64,000 nt of DNA from Aureococcus anophagefferens (taxonomy: Eukaryota; Sar; Pelagophyceae; Pelagomonadales; Pelagomonadaceae). The translations under genes were made by a program, and so were the position numbers. The stretch's first letter is position 1, and the number at the start of each line of letters is the position of its first letter. This document shows positions 1,228 through 57,000 of the stretch, in pieces. The notes beneath the pieces were generated by a model that ran no database searches, had not been told where the DNA came from, and worked only from the letters and a program-made list of their open reading frames with translations. The stretch spans positions 1,064,054-1,128,053 of the forward strand of contig NW_008705569.1 in the NCBI RefSeq assembly GCF_000186865.1, in the 5' to 3' direction.

Positions 1228-2574
1228 ATGACGACGTCGAGGACCCTGTCGACGGCTAGACGACCAGTGGTGATCGCGTTGGCCCTCTTACTCCGAACGT
1301 CGGCGCTGCTGCGTCCCGCCCAGCGCTCGACGCCGTTTCGCCACGGCAAAAGGAGGCCAGTGCGCGCGTCGACCTTCGACTCGGAGACGGCGCCGCGGCT
1401 CGAGGCGGCCGCCCCGCCCCTCGCCAACGGCACGGGCACGTTTCTCGAGCTCGAGGTGCCGGACCTCGCGCCCGCGCCACCGGCGGCGCCGCGGCCGCGG
1501 GTCACGGCCGCGTACCTCAAGCGGAAGCTCTGGACGAAGCTGGACTTCGCGCACTCGCACGCCGTGAGCGGCGCGGCCTTCCTCGCCCTGGGCGTCGGCT
1601 GGCTCGGCGCCGTCGCGCGGGGCGAGGCCGCGGGCGCCGTCGAGGCCGGCGCGCGCATCCACGGGGGCCCCGCGTCGCTCGCGATCCTCGCCGTCGGCGT
1701 CTGGAACAGCGTCTCCGCGCTGCCCATGGCCTCGGACGAGCGCGTCTACGTGACGCGGGACCTGGACCGCTACCACGCGCTCGCGTTCCGCTGGGGCGGG
1801 TCCGCGCAGCTCGTCGCCTGCGCGTGGCTCTCAGGGCAGGAAAGGGTGATTCAACGTCGCTTCAACGTGAGTGTTCCGCGCGCGCGCGTTCCGGGAAAAA
1901 AGCATCCACGCGTCGAGAGCGCTCCGAGAGATGATCGCTCGTCCAAAAATTAGCCGAAACGAGCGGAAAACGACCGAGATGGGAGCCTTTGAAGTTGGGA
2001 ATTTCGCACTCTTTTCCTGCCCAGGTGGCTCTGCTGGTGGTTCTCGGGCCTCTACCCGGCCTTCGTGCCCGGCGTCGTCGACGGGGCGCTGTGCCTCGCG
2101 GCCATGGCGTCCATCGCCTGGGTCATCTACTTCTCCGAGGAGAGCATCGCCGTCGTCGACCGGAAGGTCGCTGAGGGCGGCTTCGTCCACGGGAAGCGCG
2201 CGTCCGAGCTCACGGCGGGCGAGCACGCGCAGCTGAGCGCGCTGGCGCGCCTCGGCTCCTACCCGAACCTCTTCCAGCTCCCCGTGCTCGCCAACGTGCT
2301 TTTAGGCGGGCGGCCGTGGCTCGACCGCGTGCTCGACGAGTTCCCGCACCAGTCGGCGCTGCTGCACCACTACCTCTTCGCCTGCGCCCTGTCCTACGCC
2401 ATCACCTTCTTCGCGACGACGCTCCGGGACCGCAACGTCATCGGCATCACGGCGGACCTGGCCATGCTCGCGACGGGCACGGCGCTGCCGTTCCTGACCA
2501 TGTTCGTCGACGTCGCCGCGTTCCCCGCGGCGACGACGCTGAACCCGCTGGACTACAACGTCGGCTTCCTGTAA
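1228..2574 (+). CDS. Predicted multipass membrane protein with N-terminal signal
   Basis: Exons 1228-1823 and 2025-2574 give 381 residues. The N-terminus has a basic stretch, then a short hydrophobic run (VVIALALLL), then an Arg/Ser-rich segment, compatible with a secretory or bipartite plastid-targeting signal. After a Pro/Ala-rich linker come several hydrophobic segments: around AFLALGVGWLGAV, ASLAILAVGVWNSV, a long one spanning the splice junction (LVACAWLCWWFSGLY), one near the ALCLAAMASIAWVIYF block, and two near the C-terminus. The junction is phase 2 and restores ACAWLCWWF. I recognise no family. A plastid or endomembrane location is inference only. Confidence 0.75.
1824..2024 (+). mobile_element. 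Introner family B, intron of the membrane-protein gene
   Basis: The 193-bp element (1832-2024) is flanked by perfect 8-bp copies of GTGGCTCT (1824-1831 and 2025-2032). Terminal inverted repeats read CAGGGCAGGAAA at the left and TTTCCTGCCCAG at the right. The left target copy supplies the GT donor and the element end supplies the AG acceptor, giving a 201-bp intron whose removal restores the ancestral sequence. This copy lies in the opposite orientation to the other six family B copies. An internal GTGAGT exists but is not needed. Confidence 0.92.
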
Positions 2575-2640
2575 GACCGATGAAAATAGGTGCTAGAGGA
2601 GGGCTGCGGCGGGGGGGGAGCGCGCGGCGGCGCGGGCCGC

Positions 2641-3570: not shown

Positions 3571-3653
3571 GGCGTCGACGACGGCCCAATTCGAGCCAAG
3601 GAGTTGCTCAAGTGCGAGGCTCGCCCTTCTCGAGAGCTCGTTGCCACAAGAGC

Positions 3654-4286: not shown

Positions 4287-4318
4287 CGTTGAAGGGAAAC
4301 GTCGCGGGTAAGTGAAGG

Positions 4319-4326
4319 CATATATC
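4319..4326 (+). promoter_or_regulatory. TATA-like element upstream of the K+ channel gene
   Basis: CATATATC in the 135-base spacer between the histone-fold stop (4286) and the channel ATG (4422), about 100 bases upstream of the ATG. Support is position and contrast with GC-rich surroundings only. Confidence 0.2.
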
Positions 4327-4421
4327 CGGGGCGGGCAGCGCCCACTTCTGCCGCTGGTTTCTCTCGCAGAGCGCGGCGGGTCGCCGGGGCACGGCACGCG
4401 GGCGGCGCGGGCGCGTCGTCC

Positions 4422-7394
4422 ATGGCGCGCGTCGTGGACGTCAAGTCCTTCGACTCGTCCATCGGCGGGTCCTTCGACGACCTCGCGGCCATGCGGCCGA
4501 CGCGCCCGTCGCCGCGGGCCGACGGCCACGGGGCGCCGCAGCTCGCGCCGCTCCCGCGGTCGCGGAGCGGGCGGGGCGAGGCCCTGCTGCTCGACAGCCT
4601 GTTGAGCGGCCTCGAGGCGGCCGTGGGCGCGCTCGAGGCCTACGGGCACGACGGCTCCGGCGACGCGAGCCGCGCGCGGCGCCTCCGGAGCTGTGCGAGC
4701 CGCGCGGAGGCGCTCGCGTCCCCGGCGTCGCCGCGGGCCTACGTCGACGGCCCGTCCATCGGCGCGGAGCGGGCCGAGCCCGCCTTCCCCGCCCCGGGCA
4801 GCCCGGGCGCCCGCGGCGCCGCGCTGCCGCCCGTCGACGGCCGGAAGCGCGCGTCCTACGCCGTGCCCTCCGCGCTGCCCCCGAGCGACCCGCCGCCGGC
4901 GGGCGACGCGCCGGCGCTGCGGTCGCCGACGCGCGAGGAGCGGAAGAAGCTCCACCGCAACGAGCTCGTCGAGCGCTTCCTGTCGCTCGACGAAAACGGC
5001 GACGGCGAGGTCACGGCCGACGAGTTCGCGCACGCGCTGTCGCGGGCCGCGTGGAACTCAAATCTTCAACCCGACTTCAATCTGCGCGTCATCGAACGGT
5101 TCGGACCATCCCCTTCGGCTGCGCTTCGAGAAGTCGACGAGAGCCATCGATTCGTCCAAACGTCAGCCGAATCGACGTCGATTCGACCGAGCTCGAGAGT
5201 TGTGAAGTTTGGTGGGGACGTCCCAAACCAGTGGTTGATTTCCGCACAGGTCCCAGGACGGGCTGACCTTCAAGGAGGCCAAGGCCCTCTTCGCGTCCGT
5301 GGACGAGAACGGCGACGGCACCATGGACCAGATGGAGTTCATTTCGCTGGTGGAGAGCCGCCACCCGCTGTTGAGCAAGGTCGCGTGGGCCGCGGATCTC
5401 CAAAAGTACTTCGCGGACGACGCGTGGGACGACGACGGCGTCGCCTGGGTCGACCCGAACCGGCGGCCCTGGCTCATGCTCTCGCCCAACGACAACTTCC
5501 GCATGTGCTGGGACATCGCGACGGCCGTGCTCCTCGTCTACGTCGCCATCGTCGAGCCCAGGGCAGCACAAGAGAGCGAAATTCCCGACTTCAAAGGCTC
5601 CGATCTCGGCCGTTTTCCACTCGTTTCGGCTGATTTTTGGACGAGCGATCGTCTCTCGGAACGGTCTCGAAGCGCGAATGCTTTTCCCGGAACGCGCGCG
5701 CGCGTAAGACTCACGTTGAATTGACGTTGAATCACCCTTGTGCCACCCAGGTCGAGCCGCTGCGCCTCGGCTTCGACCTCGACCCGCCGCGCGCGTCGTT
5801 CATCTGGTTCATGGACTACATCTGCGACGGCTTCTTCGTCGCCGACTTCGGGCTCAACTTCCGCACGGGCTACCTGCGGCGGGACACGGGCGCGCTGGAC
5901 ATGGACCCGAAGCGGTCCGCGCTCTACTACTGCCGCACGTGGGCGTTCCTCGACTTCATCTCGTCCGTGCCGCCGATCCTGGAGATTTTGGTGGGCAACG
6001 GCATGACGGCGCTGCGGTCCGCGAAGATCCTGAAGCTCGGCCGCGTCATGAAGCTCGGCAAGATGTTCCGTTTGGCCAAGTTCATGCGGTTCTCGCAGGA
6101 CACGGCGTTCGGCGAATTCGTCGAGGACTTCTTCGCGTCGTCCAAGTCCAAGGCGCTCCGGCGCATCTTCCAGGTGCTTTTATCTTTCGCCATCCTGGCC
6201 CACTACCTCGGCTGCATGTTCGCCGTCGCGGGGCACACGCACCTCCGCTACTACGACCCCGCGGGCGACCCCGCGGGCGGCGGCGCGTCGCGCGCGGCGA
6301 ACGGGTGGACGACGCAGAAGAAGTACCTCGCGTCCGTCTACTGGGCCGTGACGACGATGACGACCGTGGGCTACGGCGACATCGTGCCCGTGACCCACGC
6401 CGAGCGCGTCTACACCATGGTCGCCATGGTCGTCGGCGGCGCGTGCGACGCCGCGCGGAACTCGACCGCCGGTTCGGGACGTCCCGACCACACTTTGACA
6501 TGCTCGAGCTCAAATCGACGTCGATTCGGCTGATGTTTGGACGAATCGATGGCTCTCGTCGAGTGCTCGACGCGCGGCCGAAGCGTCCGGCGTCATCCGT
6601 CCGACGACGCGCCCATTGACGTCGGGTCGCAGATGTGATGTCCGCGCAGGTTCTACGGCTACGTCGTCGCGCAGGCGACGTGCATCGTCAACGCGTACGA
6701 CGCGCGCAAGGGGCCCTACTACGCGAAGATGGACCGCATCCACTCCTGGCTCAACTACCACCAGGCGCCGCTGAGCATCCGGAGGCACGTGCGCCGCTAC
6801 TACCGCACCTACTTCTCGCACAAGACGGCCTTCGACGAGGCGGCGATCTTGGACGACCTCGACCCGGAGTCGCAGCGCATGATCGCGGACCACGTCCTGC
6901 CGTCGTGCATCCGGCACAACGAGCTCTTCGAGGTGCTGCCCAAGGGCGCGCTCTGCAAGCTCGTGCCCGTGATCCGTCTGCTGAGCTTCCAGGCGGGGGA
7001 CCTCGTCGTCTCCGAGGGCGACAAGTCGTCGTCCATGTTCATCATCTACACGGGCAAGGTCCGCGTGCGCCGCAACCTCGACGGCTCCGACGACGTCGAG
7101 GAGGACACGCTCCAGCCCGGCGGCTCCTTCGGCGAGAAGGCCGTCCTCGGCGTCAACTCGCGGTCCTACGTCACGGCGCGCGCGATCGCGCCGACGAACA
7201 TCTACATCATCACCCAGGACAACTTCATGCAGGCCTTCGTGACGCTGCCCGAGGCGCTCCTCGCCATGCGCACGGCCGTCGACGGCCTCGACGCGCCGAA
7301 GCCGTCGACGTTCTCCCACCTCTCGCCAAACCGCCCGGGCTCCGCGCTCGTCTCGCCCGCGGTCAACGCCGCCGCGAGGAAGGCGCTGGCATAA
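4422..7394 (+). CDS. EF-hand voltage-gated K+ channel with C-terminal cyclic-nucleotide-binding domain
   Basis: Exons 4422-5038, 5250-5550, 5751-6442 and 6650-7394 join in frame to 784 residues. A disordered N-terminus leads to two EF-hands, DENGDGEVTADEF (~190) and DENGDGTMDQMEF (~224). A six-helix channel core follows, with an S4-like segment spaced by basic residues (AKILKLGRVMKLGKMFRLAK) and the K+ selectivity filter TTVGYGD (~510-516). After S6 come a C-linker and a cyclic-nucleotide fold (GDLVVSEGD, then SFGEKAVLG with a downstream NSRSYVTARA). The fold is EAG/KAT-like. EF-hands fused to the N-terminus suggest direct Ca2+ gating. Three of three introns are introners. The exact donor of intron 1 affects four residues between the EF-hands. 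Confidence 0.88.
5039..5249 (+). mobile_element. Introner family A, channel intron 1
   Basis: The element spans 5047-5249, starting CCGCGTGGAACTC and ending CCGCACAG. The flanking 8-mers GTCGCGGG (5039-5046) and GTCCCAGG (5250-5257) match at 6 of 8, as in an aged target duplication. With the target-derived donor at 5039 the protein reads FAHALSQDGLTF. An alternative GT at 5051 is also in frame and adds four residues. Confidence 0.82.
5551..5750 (+). mobile_element. Introner family B, channel intron 2
   Basis: Perfect 8-bp target duplication GTCGAGCC (5551-5558 and 5751-5758). The 192-bp element (5559-5750) starts CAGGGCAGCACAAGAG and ends CTTGTGCCACCCAG. Splicing is phase 0 and restores AIVEPLRLG at the end of S1. 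The orientation is opposite to the copy at 1824. Confidence 0.93.
6443..6649 (+). mobile_element. Introner family A (reverse orientation), channel intron 3
   Basis: The element spans 6451-6649, starting CCGCGCGGAACTCG and ending TCCGCGCAG. Flanking 8-mers GTGCGACG and GTTCTACG match at 6 of 8. Splicing (phase 2) joins VVGGA to FYGYVVAQ, inside the S6 region directly after the filter. It is reversed relative to introns in the rhomboid gene yet still supplies a usable AG. Confidence 0.87.
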
Positions 7395-7456
7395 CGCGGG
7401 CTCTTCCGCGCGGGGCTCGGGCGCCCGGCGAGCGGTCGCGCGCCGTTTACGCGGGG

Positions 7457-8209: not shown

Positions 8210-10142
8210 ATGGAGCCGGCTCCCCTCTCTTCGAGCGATGACCTCGCGAACCCACTCCTAGAGAATACCGACGAGGGCACCGAACTCGCGAGTGGTACGG
8301 AACTCGTCGATGCCGACGGCGCGGAGCTGCGCGAGGCGCACCCGCTGGTCGCCGACGCCGAGGCGCAGCGCGCGCGCCCGCCGTCGCCCACGACCAGCAG
8401 CCCGAGCCGCGCGTCCATGGCCTCCGTCGCCGCGGCGCCCGACGCCCTCCGGGAGGGCCTCGTCGTCGAGCTCTGGCACGCGCGCCGCCGCTACGCGGCC
8501 GCCGGCTCGCACGAGCACCTCGCCCGCTACCTCAGTCGCTTCGTGGCCGGCACGTGGTGCCGCTGCGTCGTCGAGGACTTCGACGGCGAGACCTACACGC
8601 TGCGCTACGAGGACGGCCCCCACGCCGCCCGGTCGCGGGCCTTCGCGCCCGTCGCCGGGCTGCCGCGGGGCACGCGGTTCGTGCGGTGCCCCCGCGACTG
8701 CATCGAGGTCGACTACGAGGCGTCGTACTGCGCCGTGTCGCCCGAGGGCCGCTACGCGTTGAGCCACGGCGTCGTCGTCGTCCCCTTCATCGTCGCCGCG
8801 CAGCTCTTCTGCTACTTTTACTACGCGGCGCGCGAGTGCGAACGGACGGGGCGCGCGATCGAGGCCTACGCGCCCGTCGCGGGCCCCGGCGGCGACCGGT
8901 TCGCCTTCGCGGCGACGTCCCACTTCCCGGGGTGCCGGGACCTGCGGGGCCGCGAGTGGTACCGCTTCTGGACCTACCAGTGGCTCCACGAGGGCTGGGC
9001 GCACGTGTCGACGACCGCGCGGCACTCACATCTTCGACCCGACGTCAATGCGCGCGTCATCGAACGGTTCGGCCTCTTCGGCCGTGCTTCGAGAGCTCGA
9101 CGAGAGCAATCGATCCGTCCAAAAATCAGCCGAATCGACGTCGATGTGGTCGAGCGAGAGCATGTCAAAGTTTGGTCGGGACGTCCCGAACCGGCGGTCG
9201 ATGTCCACGCAGGTCGACGAACGGCTTCATGGCGCTCGTCTTCGGCATCCCCTTGGAAGTAGCGCACGGCGGCTGGCGCGCGGCGCTGATCATGCAGGCG
9301 GGCGTCGTCGCCGGGGCTTTGTCGTGCGCCGTTTTTGACGTGGAGAGGAGGGTCGTCGGCGCGTCCGCGAGCTGCTACGCGCTCCTCGGCGCGCACGTCG
9401 CGATCATCGCGCTCCACTGGCGGTCCATGAAGCGGGGCCTGCTGCACCGCGACGTGCGCATCGCCGTCTTCGCCGCGCTGGCGTTCTGCGACGTCCTGAC
9501 GACCGCGGACCGCGCGGCGAACGTCGGCGCCCGCGCGGAACTCGAATCTTCCACCCGACTTCAACGCGCGCGTACTCGAACGGAGTGCACCACACTCTTT
9601 TTGAATGTGCTTCGAGAACTCGACGAGAGCCATCGACGTGTCTCAAAATCGGCCAAAACGACGTCGATGTGGTCGAGCGAGAGAAGTTCAACGTTTGGTC
9701 GGGACGTCCCAGAGACCCGCGGTCGATGTCCGCGCAGGTCGGCGCCGCGTCCGCGGGCTCCGTGTCGTACTCGGCGCACGTCGGCGGCCTGGCCTGCGGC
9801 TACCTCCTCGGCGTGCTCGTCATCCAGCGGCGGCCCGTCAAGGACCCCAACGTCGGCGGCCGGCGCAAGGCCGCGGCCGGCGTCGCGCTCCTCGCGCTGC
9901 TCTGCGGCGCGCTCGCGTGGATCGGGTCGCACGCCCCGCCGAAGAACGTGCCCTGGCTCTACCCGGACTCGAACGACTGGAGCCACCGCTCCTGCTGCTC
10001 GAAGCTCGACGCCTGCGCCGACCTCGAGGGGCCGACGTCGCTGCTCTCCTGCGACGACCGGACGGAGCTCGCCCTCGGCCGGACCGTCGCGCGGTCCTGC
10101 AACGAGCTCCGCGCGCTCCTCCGCAACGCGACCGACGCGTAA
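8210..10142 (+). CDS. Rhomboid intramembrane serine protease
   Basis: Exons 8210-9006, 9213-9522 and 9738-10142 give 503 residues. A ~170-residue cytosolic N-terminus contains a small beta-rich module (WCRCVVEDFDGETYTLRYED), resembling a Tudor/SH3 fold. The rhomboid core carries the helix-2 triad-like pattern H-(4)-H-(3)-N in LHEGWAHVSTNGF, assembled exactly across intron 1. It also carries the catalytic serine in GASA (~Ser317) and the partner histidine in SAHVGGLACG (~His383), so it should be active. The C-terminal ~70 residues are Cys-rich and probably lumenal (SHRSCCSKLDAC). Both introns are introners with perfect target duplications. Substrates are unknown. Confidence 0.9.
9007..9212 (+). 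mobile_element. Introner family A, rhomboid intron 1
   Basis: Perfect 8-bp target duplication GTCGACGA (9007-9014 and 9213-9220). The element (9015-9212) starts CCGCGCGGCACTC and ends TCCACGCAG. Removal rebuilds the rhomboid HxxxxHxxxN signature, which independently supports the boundary. Confidence 0.95.
9523..9737 (+). mobile_element. Introner family A, rhomboid intron 2
   Basis: Perfect 8-bp target duplication GTCGGCGC (9523-9530 and 9738-9745). The element (9531-9737) starts CCGCGCGGAACTCG and ends TCCGCGCAG. Phase-0 splicing gives AANVGAASAGSVSYSAHVGG, in front of the catalytic histidine. Confidence 0.95.
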
Positions 10143-10278: not shown

Positions 10279-12871
10279 TTACAGGAAGACGCGCATGGTC
10301 TGGGTGACCTTCTGCCGGCACACGGGGCAGACGCGCGCGCTCTGCTTCGCCGGGCAGGACGCGTCGACGCAGGTCGAGCAGAGCACGTGGCCGCAGGGGA
10401 TGAGCGCCGTGTCGCGGGCCCGCTCGAAGCAGAAGGGGCACTCGTCGGCCTTGTCGCCGCCGGCCTTGCCCGCGCGGGGGCTCCGCGCGGGCGGCGCCTT
10501 GGGCTTGTCGCCGAGCTTCTTCTTCTCCTTGGCCGCGGCGCGGAGCGCGGCCGCGCGCGGCGTCGATGGCGTCGGCGCGGCGTCGCGGCCGCGCGGCGTC
10601 GCGGCCGGCGCGCGCGCGGCGGGCGTCGGCGGCTTGGGCGCCGCGGCGCCGCGCGGCGTGCCCTTGCTCGCGGGTGACGCCGGCGTCGGCGCCTTCCTCG
10701 GCGGCGTCGCGGCGCCCCCGGCCTTGGGCGTCGGCGCCGACCGCGACGTCGCCGCCTTCCTCGGCGGCGGCGTCCTCGCGCGCGCGGCGGCGCCCCGGGG
10801 CGTCCGCGGCGCGCCGCGCGGCGTCCCGTCGCCGTCGCCGGCCGCCTCGTCGTCGTCGTCGTCGTCCGAGGCCGCGGCCGCGCCCGCGCGGACCTGCGCG
10901 GACATCGACCGGTGGAACGCCCCGTCCGGCGAAAACTTCTCGAGCTCGGCCACATCGACGTCGATGCGGGTGACTTTTGGACGAATCGATTGCTCGCGTC
11001 GAGTGCTCGAAGCACGGACGACGGGCTCGTGTCAAAACCGTCGCATACGCGCACATTGAAGTCGGGTCGAAGATTCGAGTTCCGCGCGGGCGCGGACGTT
11101 GACGGCGACGGGCTTCCGCCGGTTCTGCGACCGCTCAAAGGTCACGGCCCGCCCCGGCCCCGGCACCTTGCCGGCGAAGCCCGAGACGTGGACGAAGAGG
11201 TCGTCGGCGTCGGCGTCGTGGCCGTCGGGCCGGATGAAGCCCATGTTGCGGACCTTTGAGAACCAGAGGAGCTGGCCCGTCTCCGCCGGCCGCGGGCTCC
11301 CGGCGCCGGGCGCCGTTCCCGCGCCGTCGCCGCTCGGCTCCGACGCCGACGACGCGTCGTCCCGCGGGCTCTCGAGGGCGGGCAGCGGCGGGGGCGCCGC
11401 GGGCGCCGCGGCGGGCGCCGCGCCGTCGTCGCACTCGTCGTCCGACTCGGGCGGTTTCGGCGTCTCGACGCGGCGCACGGCCGCGCGGCGGCTGCCCGAC
11501 GTCGCCAGGCCGTCGCAGCGCGCGAGGAAGTGGCCCATCTTCTCGAAGCCCAGCGCGCGGACGTCCAGCGCCGTCTTGTAGCGCCGGCCGTAGAGGTACG
11601 CGAGCTTCGCGCAGAGCACCGTCCTCGTCGGCGACGCGTCGCAGAGCTCGCCGATGCGGCCCTCCACGGCCGCGAGGGCGGCGTCGGGCGCGCGCCGCGG
11701 CAGGGGCGGCCGCGGCGCGCCGTCGGCGCCCTCGGCCGGCGCGGCGCCGTCGTCGTCGCGCGGCGCGCGCGCGTCGCCGCGCCGCGGCGGCGTCGCGGCC
11801 GGCGCCGCCGCGCGCGGCGACCCGACGACGTTGCGCAGGGACGCGTGGACGAGCTCCGCCTCCGTCTCCGAGCAGCCGAGCTCGACGAGGTCCGCCATGT
11901 CGAGCCGCGCCGTCGCCTCGAGGTCGAGCCGGTTCTCCACAAACAACGCGGCGAGGCGGCCGAGGTCCAGCGACGTGAGGAAGGCGACGAGGCCGTCGTA
12001 GCGCGTGAGCTCGCCGTCGCCGCCGGCGGCGAAGAGCCGCGGCGGGCTCCGGGGCGTCTCGCCGAAGCCCGGCGGCGCGGAGCCGCCGGGCGTCCGCGCG
12101 GCGCGCGGCGGCGCCGCGGCCGGCGCCGGGGCCGGCGGCGCGCCCCCGTGGCGCGGGCTCCGCATGAGGCCCGGCGGGTCGTCGCGGCGCGGCTGCGACT
12201 GCTGCGTGTCGACGACGATCTTCGGGCGCAGGAGGCCGCCGAGCGTCGCCGACACCGGCGGCGCGGCGCCGCGCGCGCCCTCGAGCAGAAAGTCGAGGTC
12301 CGGCGGCAGCGCGTCGAAGAAGGCCGGGCTCTTGAGGCCGCCGAAGCCGCCGAGGCCCACGGCCGACGGCAGCCCCATGGTGAGCTCGCGCGACGGCGAC
12401 GCGACGCGCGGGCTGCCCCGCGGCGACCCGAGGGGCAGCTGCTCGACGCGGCACGGCAGGTCGCTGAGGCCCCGCGTCTCCCGGGTCAGGGGCCTCCCGT
12501 CGCCGTAGTCGCCGTAGTCGCCGACGAGGGCGCCGAAGGGCGTGTGCTGCGGCGCCACGCGCGGCTCGGCCCGCGCGGCGGCGCCGCGGCCGGACCGGCC
12601 CGGCGCGCGGATCGCGGGCGCGGCGGCGGCCTCGGGCAGGCCGCCCGCGCGGCGGAGCGACGCCGTGGCCGCCGTGATCACGGGGTCGAGGCGCGGCGAC
12701 GGCCGCGGCGCCGGCGCCGGCGCCGCGGCGCGCGGCGCGGCGGCCTCGGCGGGCGCCGCGCGCGCGGGCTCGGGCGCCGGCGCCGGCGGCGCCGGCGGCG
12801 CCGGCGCCGGCGGGTCCCGGGGCGGCGCGGGCGCGGCCCGGGGCGGCGGGTCCCGGGCCTCGGGCCTCCGC

Positions 12872-12906: not shown

Positions 12907-12930
12907 CGGCGCGGGCGCGGGCCGCGGCCG
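10279..12930 (-). CDS. SAM - LOTUS-like - cold-shock - RING protein (5' limit uncertain)
   Basis: Exons run from about 12930 to 11098, then 10893 to 10279. Order of parts: a Pro/Ala-rich disordered start; a SAM domain (TRYDGLVAFLTSLDLGRLAA through DMADLVELGCSETEAELVH); a segment resembling an OST-HTH/LOTUS fold (LCAKLAYLYGRRYKTALDVR, then LGFEKMGHFL); a cold-shock domain (GQLLWFSKVRNMGFIRPDG, DDLFVHVSGF); an acidic and basic linker; and a C3HC4 RING (CPFCFERARDTALIPCGH, then CPVC). The combination suggests an RNA-binding ubiquitin ligase. The intron is an introner. The upstream part is open into a Pro/Ala tract without a convincing ATG, and may be continuous with the helical-repeat gene upstream after a one-base frame slip. 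Confidence 0.7.
10894..11097 (-). mobile_element. Introner family A between cold-shock and RING exons
   Basis: On the gene strand a perfect 8-bp duplication GTCCGCGC flanks the element (positions 11097-11090 and 10893-10886). The element starts CCGCGCGGAACTCG and ends TCCGCGCAG. Splicing is phase 0 and gives VAVNVRAGAAAAS. Orientation is forward relative to the host gene. Confidence 0.94.
12871..12927. repeat. (GCGGGC)n simple tract
   Basis: An imperfect hexamer array encodes Pro/Ala or Ala/Arg depending on frame. The open frame of the upstream exon and that of the SAM-RING exon differ by one base across this tract, so a miscounted base here is a likely cause of the apparent break. Confidence 0.7.
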
Positions 12931-15900
12931 CGGCGGCGGGCTTCCGGGGCGGCCGCTTCCTCGGCTGGCGCTTCGGCGGCGGCGGCGGCTCGTCGTCGGA
13001 GCCGTCGTCGTCGTCGTCGTCGTCGTCGCTCGACGCGGACGGCGGCGCCTCCTTGGGCGACGGCGGCCGCGCGGCCGCGGGCGCCTTCTTCTTCTTCTTC
13101 CGCTTCTTCTTCTCGACGAGCGCGGCCTCGTCGTCGAGGAGCTGGAGCAGCTCCCGCTCCGCCGCGGACGCCTTGGCCGCGCGGTCCGCGACCTCCTCGC
13201 CGCTGAGCGCCCGCTGCTTCGCCGCGCGGCGGCCCTTGCCGCCGCCGCGGTGCCGCGCGGCCGCGTCGCGGACGGCCTCGAGCTTGGTCCGCGCGGCGAC
13301 GCAGCGCGCGGCCGCGGACCCGCCGGCGTCGCGGTCCGCGCCCGCGGCCAGCAGATTGAGCTCGAAGCCCGCGGTCCAGCTCGCGGGGTCCACCGCGGCG
13401 CTCAGCGCGTCGAGCACCGCGTCCTGGCAGCGGTCGACCTGGCGACGCGAGTTCGCTTCGACGTGAGTCCGCGCGCGCGCGCGGACCGGAAGAAAAGCAT
13501 CCGCGCGTCGAGACCGCGCCGAGGGACGATCGCTCGTCCAAGCATGGGCCGAAACGAGTGGGGACCGGCCGAAAGAGGAGCCTTTGAAGTTGGGAACGTC
13601 GCGCGCTTTTCCCGCGCCGCGGTCGACGTCGGCCATGCGGTGCAGCAGGGCGAAGGCGACGCGCGACGACGACGCGCGCCGCGCCTCCACGAGCCGCAGC
13701 AGGTCGGCGACGCCGTCCCGGCTCTCGGCGACGGCGTCGAGCCACGACTCGCCGACCGCGCAGCGGCACTCGTGCTGGAGCGCGTGCGCGCCTGCGTGGA
13801 TATCAAATCTTCAACCCGACTTCAATGTGCGCGTATTCGAACGTTTCGACGCAAGCTCTTCGGCTGTGCTTCGAGAACTCGACGAGAGCAATCGATCGGT
13901 CCCAAAAACCAGCCGAATCGACTTCGATGTGTCCGAGCTCGAGAATTTCAAAGTTTGGTCGGGACGTCCCGAACCAGCGGTTGATTTGCACACAGGTGCG
14001 CGCCCAGCACGTGCGCGGCGACGTCGCGCGCCTCGACGCGGCCGCCGCCGTCGCCGAGCCGCTCGCCGTCGAAGCCCAGCGCCCCGAAGAGGCCCGCCTC
14101 GACCGCGCGGCCGCTGTGGAGCAGCGAGAGGAGCGGCTTCGCGTGCCGCGGCGCGTCGACGTGGACGCAGAAGTCGAAGTTCGCGATGACGGCGAGGGGC
14201 GCGAGGGCGTCGTGGTTCGCGAAGTCGTCGTCGGGCTCGGCCTCGAAAGCGCCGAGGAGCGCGACGCAGACGCGGCCCCACTCGTCGGCGCCGCAGAGGG
14301 GGCGCGGGGCCCGCGCGTCGTGGAGCCGCGCCTCGAGCGCGCCGCACGACGCCACGGCGTCGCAGAGCGCGCGCTCGTAGGGGTAGGCGCCACCCGGCTC
14401 CCGCGGCTCGGGCCGCCGGGGGAAGGGCCCGCGCCGTTCGACGAGCGCGCGGAGGTGCGCGACGGCGGCCTCGACGGCGCCCGAGGGCACGTGGCAGGGC
14501 TCGTCGAAGACCGCGAAGAGGGGCACGACGCGGCTCAGCGTACCCGCGAGCCGCGTCAGCGTGCGCTCGCCCGCGCGCCACGCGGCTTCGGAGCCGAGCG
14601 CGCGCACGAGCGCGTCGACGGCGCCGCACGCGACGACGGGCGCGAGGGCCGCCGCGTCGTCCCCCGCGCCCTCGAATCCCGCGCGCGCCTCGACGACGCG
14701 GTCCACGGCCTCGCAGAGCGCCTCGGCCGCCGCGCCGCGGCGGCCGCCGGCCGCGTCGCCGTCGGAGGGCCGCGCGCCGCCCTCGCCGGCGGCGTGGCCC
14801 GCGGACACGGCGAGCACGCCCGCGTAGAGCGCCCCGGCGCCCGCGTCCGGCGGCCCGTTCGCCGCCGCGTCGAGAAGCCCCCGGAGCTCGTCGAGCGTCG
14901 CCGTCGTCCGCGCGCGCTGCGGCGCGCGCATGCGCGCGGTCCAATCCGGCGCCGCGTCGCCGTCGCGGCCCAGGTGCAGCGCCCCGCCGTGGAGCATCTC
15001 CGCGGCGACGGCGACGGCGACGTCGCGGTCCTCGGCGCAGAGCGCGCAGAGCGCGGCGAGCGCGTCGGCCTTGGCGTGCGACGCGGGCGCGACCTCGCCC
15101 CGGCGGCAGGCGACGTCGGCGAGCGCCGCGACGCAGCCCGAGGCCACGAGGGCCAGGCGCGCGCTCGGCGTCTTGGCGAGGCCGCAGACGCCGCGGAGCG
15201 CGGCCGCCGCGTCGCCCTGCGCGTGGCGGAGCCGGCCCGGCGGCGCGCGGAGCGCGAGGCAGAGGAGCGCGAGGTGGCCGTCGGCGATGACCTTCTCGGC
15301 CCGCAGGCCGGCGACGACGTCGTCGTCGCGCGGGGCCTCGCCGCGGCGCGACCGCGCGGGCCTCGCGCAGAACGCGCCGATGAGCCGCGCGCAGAGGTGC
15401 GTGCCGTCGACGACGGCGTGCTGCGCCTCGACGGCGTCGTTGCCCAGGCGGTCCACGTGGAGCACGAGGCGCCGCGCCTCGTTCTTCGACTCGCGGAGGC
15501 GGCAGCAGCCCGCGAGGAGCGCGCCGAGCGGCGCGGGCGCGGGCGAGCCGCGCGGCCGCCGCGACACCGCGACGAGCTCGCGGAGCACCCCGTCCGCGTC
15601 GACGGCGTCCGCGACGGTGCGCAGGGCCCGCACGGCGGCGAGGGCCGGCCGCCGGCACCGCGCGTCGTGGTCCGCGACGAGCGCGACGAGCGCGGGCACC
15701 GCGAGGTCCGCGGATCGCGACGCGTAGAACGCCGCCGCGCTCGGCGCCTGGATTCGATGTCGCTTCGACGCGAGCGTGCCGCGCGCGCGCGTTCCGGGAA
15801 GAAAGCACCCGAGACCGCTCCGAGAGATGATCGCCCGTCCAAACATCAGCCGAAACGAGCGGGAAACGGCCGAGGGACGAGCCTTTGCGAAGTCGGGAAT

Positions 15901-16710
15901 GTCGCTCTCTTTTCCCGCCCCGCCCGCCGCCGGCCGCCGGAGCAGCGCGCGGTAGGACCGGCAGGCCTCGTACTTGGCCCGGCTCCGGTTCGACGCCGTC
16001 GCCAGCGCGAGGAGCACGGCGTCGACCGCGCGCCGGCCGCAGGCCTCGAGCGTCGAGCCGACGAACGCGCGCGCGAGGCGGCACGTGGACGCGAGCGCGG
16101 CGACGTCGCGGAGCCCCGCGCCCCGGCCCGGCCGCCGCTTCGCGAGTTCGACGTCGTCCCCAAAGGCCTCGTCGTCGTCCGCGTCGTGTTCGCCGTCGTC
16201 GTCGTCCTCGCCGTCCTCGGAGTCGCCGTCGTCGCCGAGCGCGCGGCCGCGCTCGTCCGCGCGCTTACTGAGGAAGCCGCAGACGTGCGACGCGACCGAC
16301 GGCGACCGCGGGCCCACGCCCGGCGCGGACCGCAGCCCGAAGTCGGACCCCCGCAGGAAGAAGACGAGGGCCGCGCGCTCCCGGGGCGACGCGCCCTCGA
16401 TCGCGTCGCTGACGACGCGCACGAAGCGCGCGCCGTCGAGGCCGTGCGTCCGCGTGCGGCTCGCGAGCTCGCAGTAGGTGCGGCCCGTCGCCGCGAACTG
16501 GCAGGACGTGCCGCTGAGGTCCACGAGCACGACGCCCCGCAGCTCGTCGCACGCTCCCGACCCGCCGCCGCACGCCCAGACGCAGCGGCGCCCGCTGCAG
16601 AAGTAGAGGCCGCCGCGCGCGGGCACGGCGTCGGCGGGCAGGGGCCGCGTCTCGACGAGGGTCGCGACGGACGCGCACCGCTCCTTCGCGCTCTTCGGGC
16701 TCAGCACCAT
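12928..16710 (-). CDS. Large helical-repeat (ARM-like) protein with acidic/basic tail
   Basis: Exons 16710-15931, 15747-14004, 13791-13628 and 13438 to about 12928 join in frame (phases 0, 1, 0). The start is ATG 16710; an earlier in-frame GTG is discounted. The first exon has a Cys-containing region (GGLYFCSGRRCVWACGGG), an acidic run and an F-box-like helix (DVAALASTCRLARAF). The second holds Ala/Leu-rich helical repeats of ARM/HEAT character (AVPALVALVADHDARCRRPA, ALRGVCGLAKTPSARLALVA, LAPLAVIANFDF). The last exon contains a Lys run (KKKRKKKKK), a poly-Asp run and PPKRQPRKRPPRKP, then passes into the hexamer tract. No in-frame stop precedes the tract, so this is probably the 5' part of the SAM-RING gene. 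Function not assigned. Confidence 0.65.
13439..13627 (-). mobile_element. Introner family B, helical-repeat gene intron 3
   Basis: On the gene strand a perfect 8-bp duplication GTCGACCG lies at 13627-13620 and 13438-13431. The element starts CGGCGCGGGAAAAG and ends CGTCGCCAG. Phase-0 splicing gives HRMADVDRCQDAVL. Confidence 0.93.
13792..14003 (-). mobile_element. Introner family A (reverse), helical-repeat gene intron 2, GC donor
   Basis: On the gene strand a perfect 8-bp duplication GCGCGCAC lies at 14003-13996 and 13791-13784. The element starts CTGTGTGCAAATCAACC and ends ATCCACGCAG. Because the target begins GC, the intron is GC-AG. Phase-1 splicing gives HVLGAHALQHECRC. Confidence 0.92.
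15748..15930 (-). mobile_element. Introner family B, helical-repeat gene intron 1, GC donor
   Basis: On the gene strand the flanks GCGGCGGG and GCGCCGAG match at 6 of 8. The element starts CGGGGCGGGAAAAGAG and ends ATCGAATCCAG. At 183 bp it is the shortest clear family B intron. The donor is GC, phase 0, giving LLRRPAPSAAAFY. Confidence 0.82.
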
Positions 16711-33629: not shown

Positions 33630-34912
33630 ATGATGCAGCTCGCGCTCCTGGTCGTGTGCGCGCTGGCGAGCGCGTCGAAGCCCGCGAGGCCCTGCGACTG
33701 CGGCGCGCTCGCCGGCGCCGGCGCGGCGGAGCGCCACGTCGTGCCACCGTCCTTCGCGTCGCGCAACCTCTCGGCCCAGGTCGTGCTCCTCAAGGTGCCG
33801 GAGACGGGGTCGTCGACGGCGGCGAACCTGCTCGCGGAGATCGCCGCGGCGCGGTCCATCCCGTCCTGGGTGTCGACGAAGAGCGGCGAGTTCGACCGCG
33901 TCGTCGCCGCGCCGGGCCGGACGGCGCCCAAGTGGGCCCTGGGCCACCGGGGCTGGGGCGCGTGGCTCCACGACTACTTCGACGGCCCCGCCGTGGACCT
34001 CGTGACGACGGCGCGGGAGCCCCTGGCGCGCCTCGCGAGCTCGGCGGAGAAGCGCCTCCTCCGCGGCGAACAAGCGGACTGCGCGCGGGGCCTCGGAGTG
34101 GCGCTCAAATTCTGGGGCGTCCACGGCGCCAAGCACTTCGAGAAGCTCAACGAGACCTGGACGAACGCGAGCCTCGTCGAGGCGGGCGTGCGCCAGATGG
34201 CCAAGTTCGACACGATCGTCGTCAAGGAGCGCTACAACGAGTCGCTCGTGGCCTTCGCGCTCCGGCACCGCGCGACGCAGGGCGGGAAAAGGGCGCGACA
34301 CGGCCAACTTCAAAGGCTCCGATCTCGGCCGTTCGTTTCGGCTGATTCTTGGACGAGCGATCATCCCTCGGAGCGCTCTCGAAGCGTGGGTGTTTTTTTG
34401 GAACGCGCGCGCGCGCGGAACACCCAATTTGAAGCGAAGTTGAATCGCCCCGTTCCCGCCCAGGCCTCCAGCTCGGCGACGTGCTCCCGCCGCTCGCCAA
34501 GTACCGCGCGGACCCCAAAGGCGGCGGCGGCACGCGCGCGGAGGCGCGGCGCGCCTGCGAGGCGTCCGTCGGCGCGGAAGACGTCGAGTTCCGCACGGAG
34601 GCGGCGATCCACGCGGCGAGCGTATCGCGGCTTGAATCGACGCTCGCCGCCGCGCGCGCCGCGGGCGTCGACGTCGGCCGTCTCCTCGACGCCTTTTCGC
34701 GCCACCTCGACGCGGCCATGACCCTCGGGGCGCGGCGCATGTCGAAGCCCGGCGCGCACCAGCAGCGCGCGGCGTCCGCGGACACGCTGATCATGAGCCC
34801 GTGCGCGCGCCGCTGCGCCGTCGCCGCGCTCAACGGCGCCGTCCGCCTGCGCTACGACGGCGCCGAGGCCCCGCGGCCCTACGCCCACCGCCGCGCCGCC
34901 CCGGACCCTTAG
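33630..34912 (+). CDS. Golgi sulfotransferase-like protein (Gal3ST/Sulfotransfer_2 type)
   Basis: Exons 33630-34269 and 34464-34912 give 362 residues. The start at ATG 33630 puts a signal sequence first (MMQLALLVVCALASAS); an ATG at 33546 is also in frame. The PAPS loop is VVLLKVPETGSSTAANLL (family: KxPKTGSS), the 3'-phosphate motif is VTTAREPLARLASSAEKR, and VVKERYNESLVAFALRHR matches the late Glu-Ser helix. Exon 2 continues LQLGDVLPPLAKYRAD, the usual sequel in galactose-3-O-sulfotransferases. The Lys-to-Glu change in the loop (PETG for PKTG) may affect catalysis. Its stop overlaps that of the giant minus-strand gene by four bases. Confidence 0.72.
34270..34463 (+). mobile_element. Introner family B, sulfotransferase intron, GC donor
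   Basis: The element (34278-34463) starts CAGGGCGGGAAAAGG and ends GTTCCCGCCCAG. The flanks GCGCGACG (34270-34277) and GCCTCCAG (34464-34471) match poorly (3 of 8). The donor eight bases before the element still gives the only phase (1) that continues the protein as RHRLQLGDVLP, so an old insertion with a GC donor is inferred. Confidence 0.75.
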
Positions 34913-40900: not shown

Positions 40901-43085
40901 TTGACGTGGTACGTGCACCGGTCGGCGTCCACGTCCTCGTCGACGCCGGGCTCCTCGACGTTCTCCTCCTCGTGGATCGGGGGCTCGTCCCGGGGGCGGA
41001 ACGGCGGGATCTCCGCGAGTTTGGTGGTCGGCGGCGGCCGCGACGGCGCGGGCTCGTCGGCGGGCGCGCCGCCCCGGAAGGGCGGGATCTCCGCGATGGG
41101 GCCGACGGTCGCCCGCGACGGCGGCGGCGGGTCGCTCCGCGGGGGCGGCGGGTCGCTCCGCGGGGGCGCGGGATCCGGGACCCGCGGCGCGGGCGCGGGC
41201 GCCGGCCGCGGCGCGGGCGGCGACGCGCCCCAGGGGAGCGTCGCGCCCGCGGGCTCGTCGGCGTCGCGCGCGACGGCGGCCACCGCGGCGACGAGGGCGC
41301 TGCCCCGGCGGCCGCTGGGGAAGAGGCGCTGGAGCTCCGCGAGCACCTCCTTCCGCGACGGCGCGTTCTTCGCGTGGATCACGAGCCAGTCGCCTGGGCA
41401 GGAAAAGAGTGATTCAAGGTCGCTTCAACATGAGTGTTTCGCGCGCGCGCGTTCCGGAAAAATCATCTACGCTTCGAGACCGTTCCGAGAGATGATCGCT
41501 CGTCCAAAAATCAGCCGAAACGAGCGGAGAACGGCCGAGATCGGAGCCTTTGAAGTTGGGGATGTCGCTCTCTTTTCCCGCCCCGGCGGTCGCCGGCGAC
41601 GTCGTAGGACGCGCGCCAGGCGACGTGGGCCAGCGCCGCGGAGGCGTCGATGGCGCGCGCGACGTCGCCGCAGTCCGCGCCCTCGTGGAGCAGCAGCTCG
41701 AAGCTGCAGGGCGCCGTCGCCCCGCCGCCGCCGCCGCGCGGGCCCTCGGCGCGCGGCGACGGCGCGGGCTCGTCGCCGTCGCCCGCGGCGCCGTCGGCGC
41801 ACCGCGCCGAGGCGACGTCCGCGGCGAACATGATCTCCACGAGGTCCGCGACGACCTCGTGGCGGTCCGCGGGGCACCGCAGGTCCAGGAAGAGCCGGTC
41901 GCGGACGACGCGGTAGTCGTCCCAGACGACCGCGCGGAACAGCAGCTCCTCGCCCTTGCCGACGGCGGCCGACCGCGCGGCCGACTCGGCCAAAATGGAC
42001 CGCGCGAGGCCGTGGAGATCGACGCTGGACCCGCTGGGCACGACCTCGAGCGTCGCCGGCGCCTTGGGCCGCGACGCCTGCGAGTTGTCCCCCCGGTCCC
42101 CGTCGCCGCGCGGCGACCGCCGCAACGTCGACGCGGCGCCCGTGAGCCGCGCGAAGTCCTCGTCGAGCTCGGCCTGGCGCCGCTCCGTGCGCCGCTGCCG
42201 CCGCGTCCGCGTGCGCTCCTCGCGGAGCTGGCGCTTGAGCCGCTTGATCTCGTCGAGGCGCTCCCGCTCGAGCTCCTCCCACGTGCGGACGTCGCGCTCG
42301 TCGCGCGCCTCGCGCCGCTTCCGCTCGCGCGCGACGACGGCCAGGCGCTCCGTCTTCGCGCGCTCGCTCGCCAGCTCCGCGGCCACGAGGCCCCGGTTCC
42401 GCCGGTAGACGCGCGCCTCGGCCGCGGGCCGCCGCGCGCGCGGCCGCGGGCCCCGCCGCGGCCGGCCCCGCGGCGGCGGCTCCGCCGCGGCGGCCATCGT
42501 GCCGTAGGGCGCCGGCGCGTCCTCGTAGAGGTCCAGCTCCTCGTCCAGCCCGTCCTCGCTGGCGCCGTCGGGCGCGTCGGGGAACGCGCCCGGCGCCGGC
42601 GCGGGCGACCGCGACCGGTCCGGCGCCGCGAGCTCGTAGCGCCGCTGCGCGGCCTCGATCTCGCCCCGGAGCGCGTCGGCGGCGCGCTTCTCGGCGCCGA
42701 CGTCGGCCCGCTTCATGCGCGCGTCGAGCGCCTCCGTCTCGCCCTTCCGCGCGCGGAGCCGCTGCTCGAGCGCCGCGACCTGGCCGTAGAGCGCGACCAA
42801 CGCGGACGTGAGCTGGCTCGGGTCGAGGCACGGCTCGTCGTCGATGACGCCGCCGCCGACGCTCCTCGAGCGCTTGCAGCGGTTCACGTCCTCGAGCGCG
42901 AGCTCCAGCTCCCGGCTCCGCAGCTCCAGCGACGCGTCGAAGGCGTCCTTGACGCGCCGCAGGCGCTCGCCCTCGCGCCGCTGCTGCTCGAGCTGCTGCT
43001 CCGCCTCCTCGAGGTGCATCTCCAGGTCCTCGCGGACGCGCCGCTTCGACGGCGTCCACGCCGACAAGATGCGCGGCTTCACCAT
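34909..43085 (-). CDS. Giant multi-Tudor/SH3-like scaffold protein with SAM and His-rich regions
   Basis: Exons 43085-41594 and 41393-34909 give about 2,658 residues. The N-terminal exon has a coiled coil (LEEAEQQLEQQRREGERLRR; EIKRLKRQLREERTRTRRQ). A SAM-like domain follows the intron by ~260 residues (DFGARLARAGLGSVAEGLRA, LQTLAKMTEAEVDALARDLG). Seven paired beta modules then run to the C-terminus. Each has a first half like GARVECRYMATSEFYGGVV with YDDG, a link PGQ(A/V)-VGE(T/R)VDA, and a second half ending in FDD then (I/L)F(G/S)-FxD. They resemble Tudor/SH3-type folds. Between modules 3 and 4 is a His/Asp/Glu-rich tract. Pro/Ala/Glu linkers with tandem repeats separate the rest. I assign no function; chromatin or cytoskeletal scaffold are both possible. 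Confidence 0.8.
35691..35800 (-). repeat. 15-bp tandem repeat coding (AEEPA)n
   Basis: About seven copies of a 15-bp unit encode Ala-Glu-Glu-Pro-Ala in the linker before the last module pair of the giant scaffold gene. The array keeps frame. Confidence 0.85.
37395..37775 (-). repeat. His-rich coding tract in the giant scaffold gene
   Basis: About 125 residues are dominated by His with Asp, Glu, Ala and Gly: DEHCTEDHAHGHDHGDGE, ASHDHASHDHASHDH, PAHAHDHHEEE. Two CTEDH and one CTDEH units add cysteines. Such tracts bind Zn, Ni or Cu in ZIP/CDF transporter loops and metal chaperones; a metal role here is inference. Confidence 0.85.
38940..39330 (-). repeat. 153-bp tandem repeat in the giant scaffold gene
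   Basis: A 51-codon unit containing SPRRDAVVPDAAPAEP and RPEKENAPEPDA is repeated, with the GAGTT landmark at 38966, 39119 and 39272 (exactly 153 bases apart). Near-identity between copies indicates recent expansion. Confidence 0.88.
41394..41593 (-). mobile_element. Introner family B in the giant scaffold gene, GC donor
   Basis: On the gene strand the flanks GCGACCGC (41593-41586) and GCGACTGG (41393-41386) match at 6 of 8. The element starts CGGGGCGGGAAAAGAG and ends TTTTCCTGCCCAG. Phase-1 GC-AG splicing joins SYDVAG to DWLVIHAKNAPS, linking what otherwise look like two separate genes. Confidence 0.85.
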
Positions 43086-50301: not shown

Positions 50302-50510
50302 TATTTCTGGTGTGGCGTGGCGAGCCTCGCTGGGAGGCGCGCTGGAGGGAGTGCTGAGCTCGAGGCCGACGGTGACGACATGGTGACGCCGAGCTCCGGA
50401 AGCTGCAGCTGTCTCCCAGGCGTACAGGCGATAGGCCGAAGCGCTCCGTCTCGCACGCCTTTGCACGCCGCGCATCTGGCACGCCCACTCTCCCCGCGCA
50501 TCGCTCGGCA

Positions 50511-51338: not shown

Positions 51339-51349
51339 GGACACGTTGT

Positions 51350-52600: not shown

Positions 52601-52798
52601 GGGTGTTTTTCTTCGAGGCGCGGGTCGCGGTGGCGCGGCGCGGTGTGTGTGGCGGTGGGTCTTGTGACGACTCGAACGCGTCGGCCGGCGCGCGCAGCGG
52701 CGACGGCCAGGTTCGACGGCAGGCGGTGTCGCGCCAGTGTTGCAGGCACGATAACACGATGCACTCCGCCTCGCAGTGCTTGAATTTCGCTTTGAACG

Positions 52799-53980: not shown

Positions 53981-54004
53981 TTAGCCCCCCGAAAGAACGG
54001 GCGC

Positions 54005-57000
54005 CTACTTGGCCGCGCGGACCGTGCCGTTCTTCTTGACGACCTGGGGCACCTTCGTCGCGTCGCTGTCGTCCTTGATGATGACCTCCTTCTGGCCGGA
54101 CGTCGACACGACCTTGCCCTCGAAGTAGCGGATCTTGGAGCTCTCCTTGCCGTAGACGATGTTCGGCGACCGGATCGAGCTCTTCCAGCCGCCGTTCGAC
54201 GGCCGCGACCCGTAGCGCTCGAGGAGCTGCTCCCGGAGCCGCGCGTCCTCGCGGTCCTTCTTGCGCTTCGCCTTGGCGGCGTCCTCGGCGCTCACGCGCT
54301 TGGCGGGGGCCTTGCGGAGGGCCGCGCGCGTCATCTCCGCGGTGCCACTGCGCGCCGCGAGCCACTCGGCCGCGGCCCTGGCGTCGCGGCCCTTGAGCTC
54401 CCAGGCCGCCGCGAAGTCGTCGTCGCCGAGGTCCTGCACCGTGGCGCCCCGGAGCAGCGCCACGACGGCGGCTCTGCGCGCCGCGGCGGCCGCGCGGCGG
54501 TGCAGGACGACGGCCGCGAGCGCGGCGGGCGCCTCGAAGGCCTTGTTCGACTCGCGGCGCTTCGCCTTCGCGACGACCCTGGCCCACTTGCGGAGCACGT
54601 GGGGCGCCATGGGCGTCTGCTCGTCGTCGTCGTCGCCCTCGCCGCCGGGGTCCGGGTGCGCCTCCTCGGGGTCGCTGCCCGCGTCGTCGCGGAGCTCGGG
54701 CACGGCGGCGCGCGCCGCGGCCACGAAATCCGCGAGGTCGCCCGCGGGGCCCGCCTTGGCGCCGTCGAGCACGCAGGCGACGGCGGCGCCCTGGAGCGCG
54801 GCGTCGCCGAGCTCCTTGAAGGCGGGCAGGAACGCGTCGAGCACCGTGGACACGTTGTCGCCGTCGCCGCCGTCGACGGAGCCGACGACGTAGTCCCACT
54901 CGTCGCGGCCGAGCGCGTCGAGGGACGCGACGAGCGACGCGCAGCCGACCCTGGCCGCCGTCTCGGCGTCGCGCGCCGCGGACGCCGCGGCCGCCTCCTC
55001 GAGCGCCCGGGCCTTTTCGAGCGTGGACTCGAGCCGCTCGCGCTCGACGCGCTTCTGCAGCTCGACGGCGCTCTCGCGCTTCGGCTCCGGCGCCTTCGCG
55101 ACGGGCGCCGGCGCCTTGACGACGGGCGCCGGCGCCTTGACGACGGGCGCCGGCGCCTTCGCGGGCGGCTCCGTTTCCGCGGGCGCCTCGGGCTCCTTCT
55201 CGGGCGCGGGCGCGTCGTCGCGCGTCGCCGACGGCGCCGCCGCGTCCGCGGGCGGCGCCGGCGCCTTCTTGGGCTTCTTCTTCTTGGGCTTCTTCTTCTT
55301 CTCCGCCGCGACGGCCTGCTCGAGGTCCTCCTTGGACCGCTCGAAGTCGTCCGCGGCCGGTTCGCGCGCGTCCTCGGACGCGACGGCCGCGCGCGCGTCG
55401 GCATCCTTGGGCTTCTTGCCCTTGGCCGCGCGGTACTCCAGCACGTCGTCCATGCAGGCGTCGAGGATGGCGCGGATCTGCTCCTGGGAGTAGTCCTGGA
55501 GCGACTCCAGACACGCGAGGACGGACACGGCCGTCGAATCTTTCCGCGGCGCGACGGTGACGATGGACACGCAGCCCTTGCGGAGCATGCGGTCCTGCAG
55601 GCTCCGCTGCTCCGCGGGCTGGAGGGACCCGCGGAGGCCGTACTTGTAGACGTCCGACGGCTCGAAGAGCACCCAGCTCTCGCCGTCGGCGCCGAGCGGC
55701 GCGCGCTTTTCGCACCGGAGGAACCTGGGCAGGAACAGAGTGATTCAACGTCGCTTCATCATAAGTGGTTCGTGCGCGCGCGTTCCCGGAAAGAAAACAT
55801 CCACGCTTCGAGATCGTTCCGAGAGATGATCGCTCGTCCAAAAATCAGCCAAAACGAGTGGAAAACGGCCGAGATAGGAGCCTTTGAAGTTGGGAATTTC
55901 GCTCTCTTTTCCCGCCCTGGAAGGAACGCGCCCTCGATCCACTTGGCGTGCTTCTCGCTGTAGCCGTAGGTGCGCATGGACGCGCCGACGAGGGGGCCGG
56001 ACCCGGGCGGCTTGGGCTTGGGCGCGGCCTTGGGCGCGGCCTTGGGCTTTTGCGGCGCCGCGGCGGCGTCCGCGACGCCGCGGCCCGCGGCGATGCGGCC
56101 GAGGAGCGGCGCCGCGTCCGCGACGAGCGGCTCGGCGCCGGGCACGTCGTCGTCGTCGTCGGGCGTCGCGGGCCGCGGCGGCGGGCTCGCGGCCCGCGGC
56201 GGCGTCCGCGCGCGCGGCGGCGCCGCGTCGCGCTTCGGCGGCGCGGGGCTCTTGGCCCGCTTCGGCGGCGCGGGGCTCTTGGCCCGCTTCTTCTGGGCGA
56301 GCTGGGACTGGAGGGCCGCGATCTGGGCCTCGAGGGCCTTCTCCTCGTCGGTCTCGTCGTCGCCGGGCCCGTCGTCCACGGGCTCCGGCGGCGGCGCGGG
56401 CTTCTTCTTCCGCGCGAGCACGGACGTGGGCTCGGCGGGCTTCTTCGGCGCCGGCGCGGGCTTTTGCGGCGCGGGCTTTTGCGGCGCGGGCTTGGGCGCC
56501 GGCGGCTTCGCGGGCGGCCGGCCGCGCGGCTCGAGCGCCGAGGGGTCGTCGGCCTGCGTCATGAAGTCGGCGAGGTGGAGCGCGCAGCCCGGCGGCGCGC
56601 CGGCGAACTTCTCCTCGAAGCAGAGGGGCAGCCCGAGCTTCTTCGCGAGGTGGATCGTGCGGTGGAGGTCGTCGAGGGGGATGAGGTTGTGCGACACGCG
56701 GAGCTTGAGCGGCCTTCGCTTCCCGGTTCTCCCCGGCGCCGGGTAGCGGCCCGCGGCCGCCGTGACGAGGGTGTCGCACTTCGTGAGCCGGTTGTGCGAC
56801 AGGTCGACGTCGGCGATGGGCTCGTCGAGGCTCTCGACGAGGTCCGCGACGCCGCGCGCGCCCTGGTCGCCGATGCGGTTCCGCGCGAGCGACAGCTTCG
56901 TGACCCGGACGAGCGTCGACACGTCCAGGAGCGCGCCGGCGATGGCGATGGCGCCGTAGTCGCCCAACGCGTTGTCGTCGAGGTGGATGGCCATGGCCAG

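Follow-up and report, generated by a model that had tools for sequence, protein, structure and literature searches.

We analyzed a 64,000-nucleotide stretch of the genome of the pelagophyte Aureococcus anophagefferens (contig NW_008705569.1, positions 1,064,054 to 1,128,053; the whole stretch is termed the window herein, and positions are counted from its first base). The window contains 13 intervals that are, with high confidence, short inverted-repeat elements, likely non-autonomous DNA transposons, each predicted to be spliced out as an intron through a donor derived from the target-site duplicate and an acceptor AG carried by the element. Such elements, termed introners, are an already known phenomenon in A. 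anophagefferens, to which the counts presented here add detail.

Two introner families in the window

Blastn searches of the window using one copy of each of two element families (F1 and F2) as query matched 13 places, seven F1 and six F2, the same number of copies and families as in an initial annotation of this DNA. Borders were set from the duplicates and the element ends and then jointly rechecked. The target duplication matched at 8 of 8 positions in seven copies, 7 of 8 in one, 6 of 8 in four, and 3 of 8 in one, a recount that agrees with the initial annotation. When the left copies were compared at shifted positions as a control, 8 of 8 positions matched in 1 and 7 of 8 in 9 of 1339 comparisons (mean 2.4). 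Predicted donors were GT in nine copies and GC in four, and the acceptor was AG in 13 of 13, in line with the earlier claim that the left copy supplies the donor and the element supplies CAG.

A codon-usage model was trained on the window and used to score 180-nt flanks on each side of every join. After removal of the element, the two flanks of all 13 joins shared a strand and a frame, with no stop across the join, so the earlier claim that all joins keep the reading frame also stands. Retention, on the other hand, would bring a stop into 8 of the 13 copies and a frame shift into three of the remaining five (those beginning at 5039, 9523, and 34270).

Elements across the genome

The genome searched comprised 49.05 Mb in 86 contigs. 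An F1 core pattern, allowing at most one mismatch, gave 2852 matches, against 0 for a reversed control. The first 70 of these listed matches, from contigs C1 and C2 and all exact in the core, were taken with their flanks as the F1 sample. A donor dinucleotide GT or GC (GY) and an AG were present in 69 of the 70, 62 of them resolved by script and seven more by eye. 58 of the 62 were also in frame on a coding strand; the other 12 copies were read by eye, and the seven gained in this way had borders set wrongly by the script or flanks that were unclearly coding. Upstream of exact F1 gene-5' ends by eight bases, GY was found in 1076 of 1117 cases (96.3%), compared with 20.0% in the coding-flank background. 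Among the first 100 listed F1 ends there were four exceptions, three with GY shifted by 1 to 2 bases and one with GA-AG. In a further set of 66 F1 rows (window duplicate L009 dropped; one locus, L012 and L068, counted twice), the predicted strand was coding on both sides of the element in 61 rows, and every one of these was in frame; the remainder comprised two window copies with script-misplaced borders plus L054, L055, and L058. F1 had no match in phage records.

The F2 set had 46 rows, consisting of the six window copies and the 40 best matches, one of which was a window copy again (45 distinct). Donors were GT in 24 and GC in 22, the acceptor was CAG in 45 and TAG in one, and two in-frame coding flanks were observed in 41 of 46; in each of the remaining five, the score placed one flank on a different strand or in a different frame. 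The genome-wide element search with tabulation of flanking 8-mers that the initial annotation had proposed found a duplication matching at 8 of 8 positions in 54 of the 70 sampled F1 copies and in 33 of the 46 F2 rows.

Potassium channel and rhomboid genes as checks of the joins

Two genes in the window carry several of the predicted introns and allowed the joins to be compared with protein sequences. The spliced potassium channel product contained EF-hand, ion transport, and cNMP-binding Pfam domains, and the proteins P0023, P0024, and P0026 (68, 56, and 53% identical; P0024 is itself from A. anophagefferens) aligned without gaps through all three channel joins. Two further A. anophagefferens proteins matched the spliced product, P0021 at 90% identity over 100% of the query and P0025 at 98% over 18%. 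Another match, P0022 (99% identical), starts within the F1 copy and continues past the third join; the DNA behind it may be an empty site for the F2 copy at 6443, or the protein may be a spliced model. For the rhomboid, the Pfam E-value was 6.5e-24 when spliced versus 1.5e-11 for exon 2 alone. The H-x4-H-x3-N motif that one join had been said to rebuild was indeed found on the joined sequence. The 13 predicted introns are listed in Table 1.

Table 1. Predicted introner introns of the window, with the donor supplied by the left duplicate and the match between the two duplicates.
Feature	Positions	Strand	Donor	Duplication match	Remarks
F1 introner intron (predicted)	1824..2024	+	GTGGCTCT	8/8	
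F2 introner intron (predicted)	5039..5249	+	GTCGCGGG	6/8	K+ channel gene
F1 introner intron (predicted)	5551..5750	+	GTCGAGCC	8/8	K+ channel gene; element antisense
F2 introner intron (predicted)	6443..6649	+	GTGCGACG	6/8	K+ channel gene; element antisense
F2 introner intron (predicted)	9007..9212	+	GTCGACGA	8/8	Rhomboid gene; join rebuilds H-x4-H-x3-N
F2 introner intron (predicted)	9523..9737	+	GTCGGCGC	8/8	Rhomboid gene
F2 introner intron (predicted)	10894..11097	-	GTCCGCGC	8/8	
Degraded F1 introner intron (predicted)	13439..13627	-	GTCGACCG	8/8	Open and in frame if retained
F2 introner intron (predicted)	13792..14003	-	GCGCGCAC (GC)	8/8	
Degraded F1 introner intron (predicted)	15748..15930	-	GCGGCGGG (GC)	6/8	Open and in frame if retained
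F1 introner intron (predicted)	34270..34463	+	GCGCGACG (GC)	3/8	Element antisense
F1 introner intron (predicted)	41394..41593	-	GCGACCGC (GC)	6/8	Element antisense to gene
F1 introner intron (predicted)	55725..55927	-	GTTCCTTC	7/8	Element antisense to gene

Element ends and orientation

Terminal inverted repeats are present in the end sequences of both families. Across the 62 script-resolved F1 copies, the gene-strand 3' end was always CAG, and the 5' end was CAG in 47, CGG in 10, CCG in two, AAG in two, CAC in one, and CTG in none. Relative to the gene, 47 interiors were antisense and 15 were sense, and the gene strand read CNGGGC...GCCCAG whichever direction the interior took, where N was mostly A and never T in the sample. 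F1 therefore exists as two mirror-image forms that each offer AG on a single strand; AG on both strands occurred in 0 of the 70 sampled copies. F2 ends read CTG...CAG, such that an AG is available on both strands. Given the two mirror forms of F1 and the double provision of AG in F2, AG is not tied to one end of the element.

The F1 forms were placed on a tree of 97 copies from which three end bases had been trimmed on each side, and needed six changes. Identity was 94.4% and 91.6% within forms and 90.8% between them, in a comparison whose sense set is enriched by a BLAST-chosen sample. A perfect-repeat F1 ancestor (CAGGG..CCCTG) that lacked AG and acquired its acceptor through a single substitution is unsupported, as this sequence has 0 exact matches genome-wide; the two forms would result equally well if the interior inverted between its flanking repeats. 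Four copies (L018, L019, L021, and L022) were identical in the element and otherwise unrelated in their surroundings, which implies that movement was recent. An end-to-end stem was predicted for one copy of each F1 form (no shuffle control). In the window, two of the seven F1 copies retain little of the acceptor-end repeat and keep GY, AG, and frame, so that pairing of the end repeats into a hairpin splice guide is at least not required for the maintenance of these introns.

For F2, the ends CTGTGTGGAAATCAA occurred at 774 places versus 10 with CAG, and an ancestral form was accordingly not seen. A seemingly longer F2-ended element (C1:2651791-2652535) resolved into two separate F2 copies. Blastn also aligned F1 79-131 with 9086-9138 in an F2 copy (79.6% alike), an interior stretch common to the two families (e.g., 1910-1962) that may point to common ancestry or to a functional site present in both.

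Donor choice

GC donors outnumber GT donors in the F1 sample (GC 45, GT 24, neither 1; n = 70). GC makes up 79% of GC plus GT in the coding background, and relative to this GT is favored over GC approximately 2.3-fold (38:62 in 100 listed F1 copies). Beyond GY, donor positions -6 to -1 and +3 to +8 carried at most 0.17 bits each (63 rows). Of 40 element-sense F1 rows, 33 contain an internal GTGAGT, a sequence close to the usual donor consensus, and in 32 of the 33 it lies 44 bases past the donor. It was rejected as a donor because a site 44 bases on is out of frame, while exact removal fits 61 of 61 testable F1 rows; in the splicing predicted here it would thus be passed over.

According to PMC3033335, A. 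anophagefferens has a consensus U1 5' end and 39.6% GC-AG introns, which are called an enigma. Co-opted donors would explain this abundance, if donors are drawn from the duplicated bases and the spliceosome favors GT just approximately 2.3-fold.

Proposed mechanism and points that weigh against it

Under the mechanism that we propose, insertion of a short inverted-repeat element would create an 8-base target duplication, recognizable in most copies, and the first two bases of the left duplicate (GT or GC) would become the donor and the last two bases of the element (AG) the acceptor. The right duplicate would remain exonic, so that precise excision would return the gene to its pre-insertion coding sequence. 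Toward the acceptor, the F1 repeat is rich in pyrimidines and would act as a polypyrimidine tract. Movement would depend on a transposase supplied in trans, and insertions that fail to splice would be removed by selection. The same element recurs at many unrelated genes, as the window copies, F1 core matches, and F2 ends counted above attest. Together, the duplications, inverted-repeat ends, co-opted donor, and carried AG support the initial annotation in reading these elements as DNA-transposon introners of Aureococcus.

Four sets of observations count against this interpretation. First, the degraded copies at 13439-13627 and 15748-15930 are multiples of three without a stop, and as retention would keep the frame, frame does not force splicing there. 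These two may be en route to becoming coding sequence; both are F1 copies and lie in the same minus-strand gene. Second, the sample of 70 F1 copies includes one, L055, that is on the wrong strand and lacks AG. Third, the deposited model P0021 places two of the three channel introns elsewhere: at the first join (5039-5249) 20 residues of the F2 copy are read as exon, and at the second (5551-5750) five residues are dropped at the F1 copy, with agreement at the third. P0025 deviates from the predicted joins more than P0021. We regard these deviations as probable model errors because the homologues lack the 20-residue insert and keep the five residues; they nonetheless count against exact borders. 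Public A. anophagefferens gene models may contain introner errors of the kind observed in P0021.

Fourth, the profiles for hAT and KDZ transposases, PF05699 and PF18758, respectively, had no match in the genome, and no control genome gave a signal either.

Copies outside coding sequence are scarce. Noncoding sequence makes up 14.3% of the non-introner window, and with half of the insertions on the wrong strand and 20% offering GY, approximately 63% of non-breaking F1 copies would be expected outside coding sequence, an expectation that rests on the coding share of one window and that intergenic insertions may lower if they also do harm in a compact genome. Three or four of 70 were observed, which is difficult for selection alone.

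The few candidates for such copies were L127, in which both flanks fell below zero in coding score, and L129 and L138, which had no clear coding flank; all three still had GY and AG. In seven further sampled F1 copies one flank fell below zero. L127 (G000:C1:3388760-3389560) has a GT donor, an AG, a duplication, and noncoding-scoring flanks, adjoins a CT microsatellite, and is a candidate for an untranslated-region intron or a non-genic copy.

Insertion bias, selection, and other explanations

One reading of this scarcity is that insertion is tied to transcription or to splicing competence, with new copies landing almost exclusively where the transcribed strand has GY eight bases ahead of the element, and that the spliceosome recognizes the donor simply as GY at a set distance from the element, with the GTGAGT at +44 skipped. 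It draws on the three of 70 F1 copies without a clear coding flank and the one on the wrong strand, set against the approximately 63% expected, and we advance it tentatively, as an unlikely possibility.

We consider it improbable that donor GY mainly reflects a target preference of the transposase and not selection for splicing. Such a preference would fit the rarity of copies outside coding sequence relative to what simple selection predicts, and it would fit the GY and AG kept by L127, L129, and L138. A mirror bias at the far end of the duplication fits as well, with RC mildly enriched there (31 of 100 listed F1 and 17 of 45 F2 copies versus 22.4% expected). However, this bias is approximately 1.5-fold, while GY at the donor end is nearly complete, and a symmetric preference therefore cannot account for it. 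Moreover, the GY end tracks the strand of the gene and not the orientation of the element.

Splice sites internal to the element, with part of the element translated, are very unlikely. The frequent GTGAGT and the P0021 model, which relies on sites within the elements for two of the three joins, would favor them, as would one Aureococcus sp. family in the survey of PMC9860276 that brings both of its splice sites and, according to the Fig. 2F legend, gains 12 bp. Unlike that family, the elements here fit exact restoration in every testable F1 row, the GTGAGT is out of frame at its usual position, and the channel homologues side with the predicted joins in both places where P0021 departs from them.

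For fungal introner-like elements, an RNA route has been proposed in which spliced-out introns enter other transcripts by reverse splicing and return to DNA by copying. Such a route would place copies in genes on the splicing-competent strand, as seen in 69 of 70 sampled F1 copies, yet it is very improbable here. An intron inserted by reverse splicing would carry along its own initial bases, whereas the first eight bases match the target and not the family in most F1 and F2 copies. The inverted-repeat ends and the occurrence of F1 interiors in either orientation are further evidence against this route.

Other introns and features of the window

Segmentation by coding periodicity assigned 82% of the window to coding sequence, and gene breaks mostly fell at the elements. 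The earlier statement that almost every intron is an introner holds as far as this model shows, which could miss short introns that are stop-free and preserve the frame; it does not extend to one non-introner intron at 31969-32064 (96 nt, GC-AG, no duplication). With a single match in the genome, this intron was ruled out as a third family. The product of the gene that carries it resembles, as judged by eye, a glycogenin-type glycosyltransferase.

The frame of a large minus-strand gene switches at approximately 12919-12920 in a very GC-rich, low-complexity stretch, possibly through a sequence error. A direct repeat with 1143-base spacing (28569-30382) lies within one minus-strand coding stretch, with 300 bases 98% and 239 bases 85% alike, and tandem repeats of 24- and 39-base units occur inside a predicted coding stretch at 52869-53415.

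Relation to known systems and implications

DNA-transposon introners of A. anophagefferens were reportedly described by Huff, Zilberman and Roy in 2016, with 8-base duplications, inverted-repeat ends, a co-opted donor, and a carried AG. The elements of the window resemble these, with a length of approximately 200 bp, an 8-base duplication, inverted-repeat ends, a duplicate-derived donor, and an element-borne AG. hAT elements likewise make 8-base duplications, with the consensus nTnnnnAn, and the outer F1 end CAGGG resembles the ends of hAT-type miniature transposons. Unlike in hAT elements, A was not enriched at position 7 of the duplication (12% in F1, n = 100 listed; 16% in F2, n = 45; background 13.6%), and no hAT assignment is made because the duplications depart from this consensus.

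A characteristic introner length of approximately 210 bp is given for A. anophagefferens in a passage of PMC9481584. In the sections of PMC9860276 that bear on these points, algal introners are like miniature inverted-repeat transposable elements, and surveyed introners are nonautonomous, with duplications, inverted repeats, and one co-opted splice site, and with GC donors reaching up to 50% in some families. The duplications, inverted repeats, single co-opted splice site, and many GC donors of F1 and F2 agree with that description. The detail added here consists of the excess of GC over GT in F1, its mirror forms, the AG on both strands of F2, the GTGAGT that is apparently skipped, and the rare non-intronic copies.

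The steps of mass intron birth can be read straight from the sequence in these elements, which few systems allow. The donor counts bear on the GC-AG introns that PMC3033335 calls an enigma of A. anophagefferens. The counts also sharpen two questions, how such donors are recognized and why copies outside introns are rare, and this rarity makes insertion bias versus selection directly testable in A. anophagefferens.

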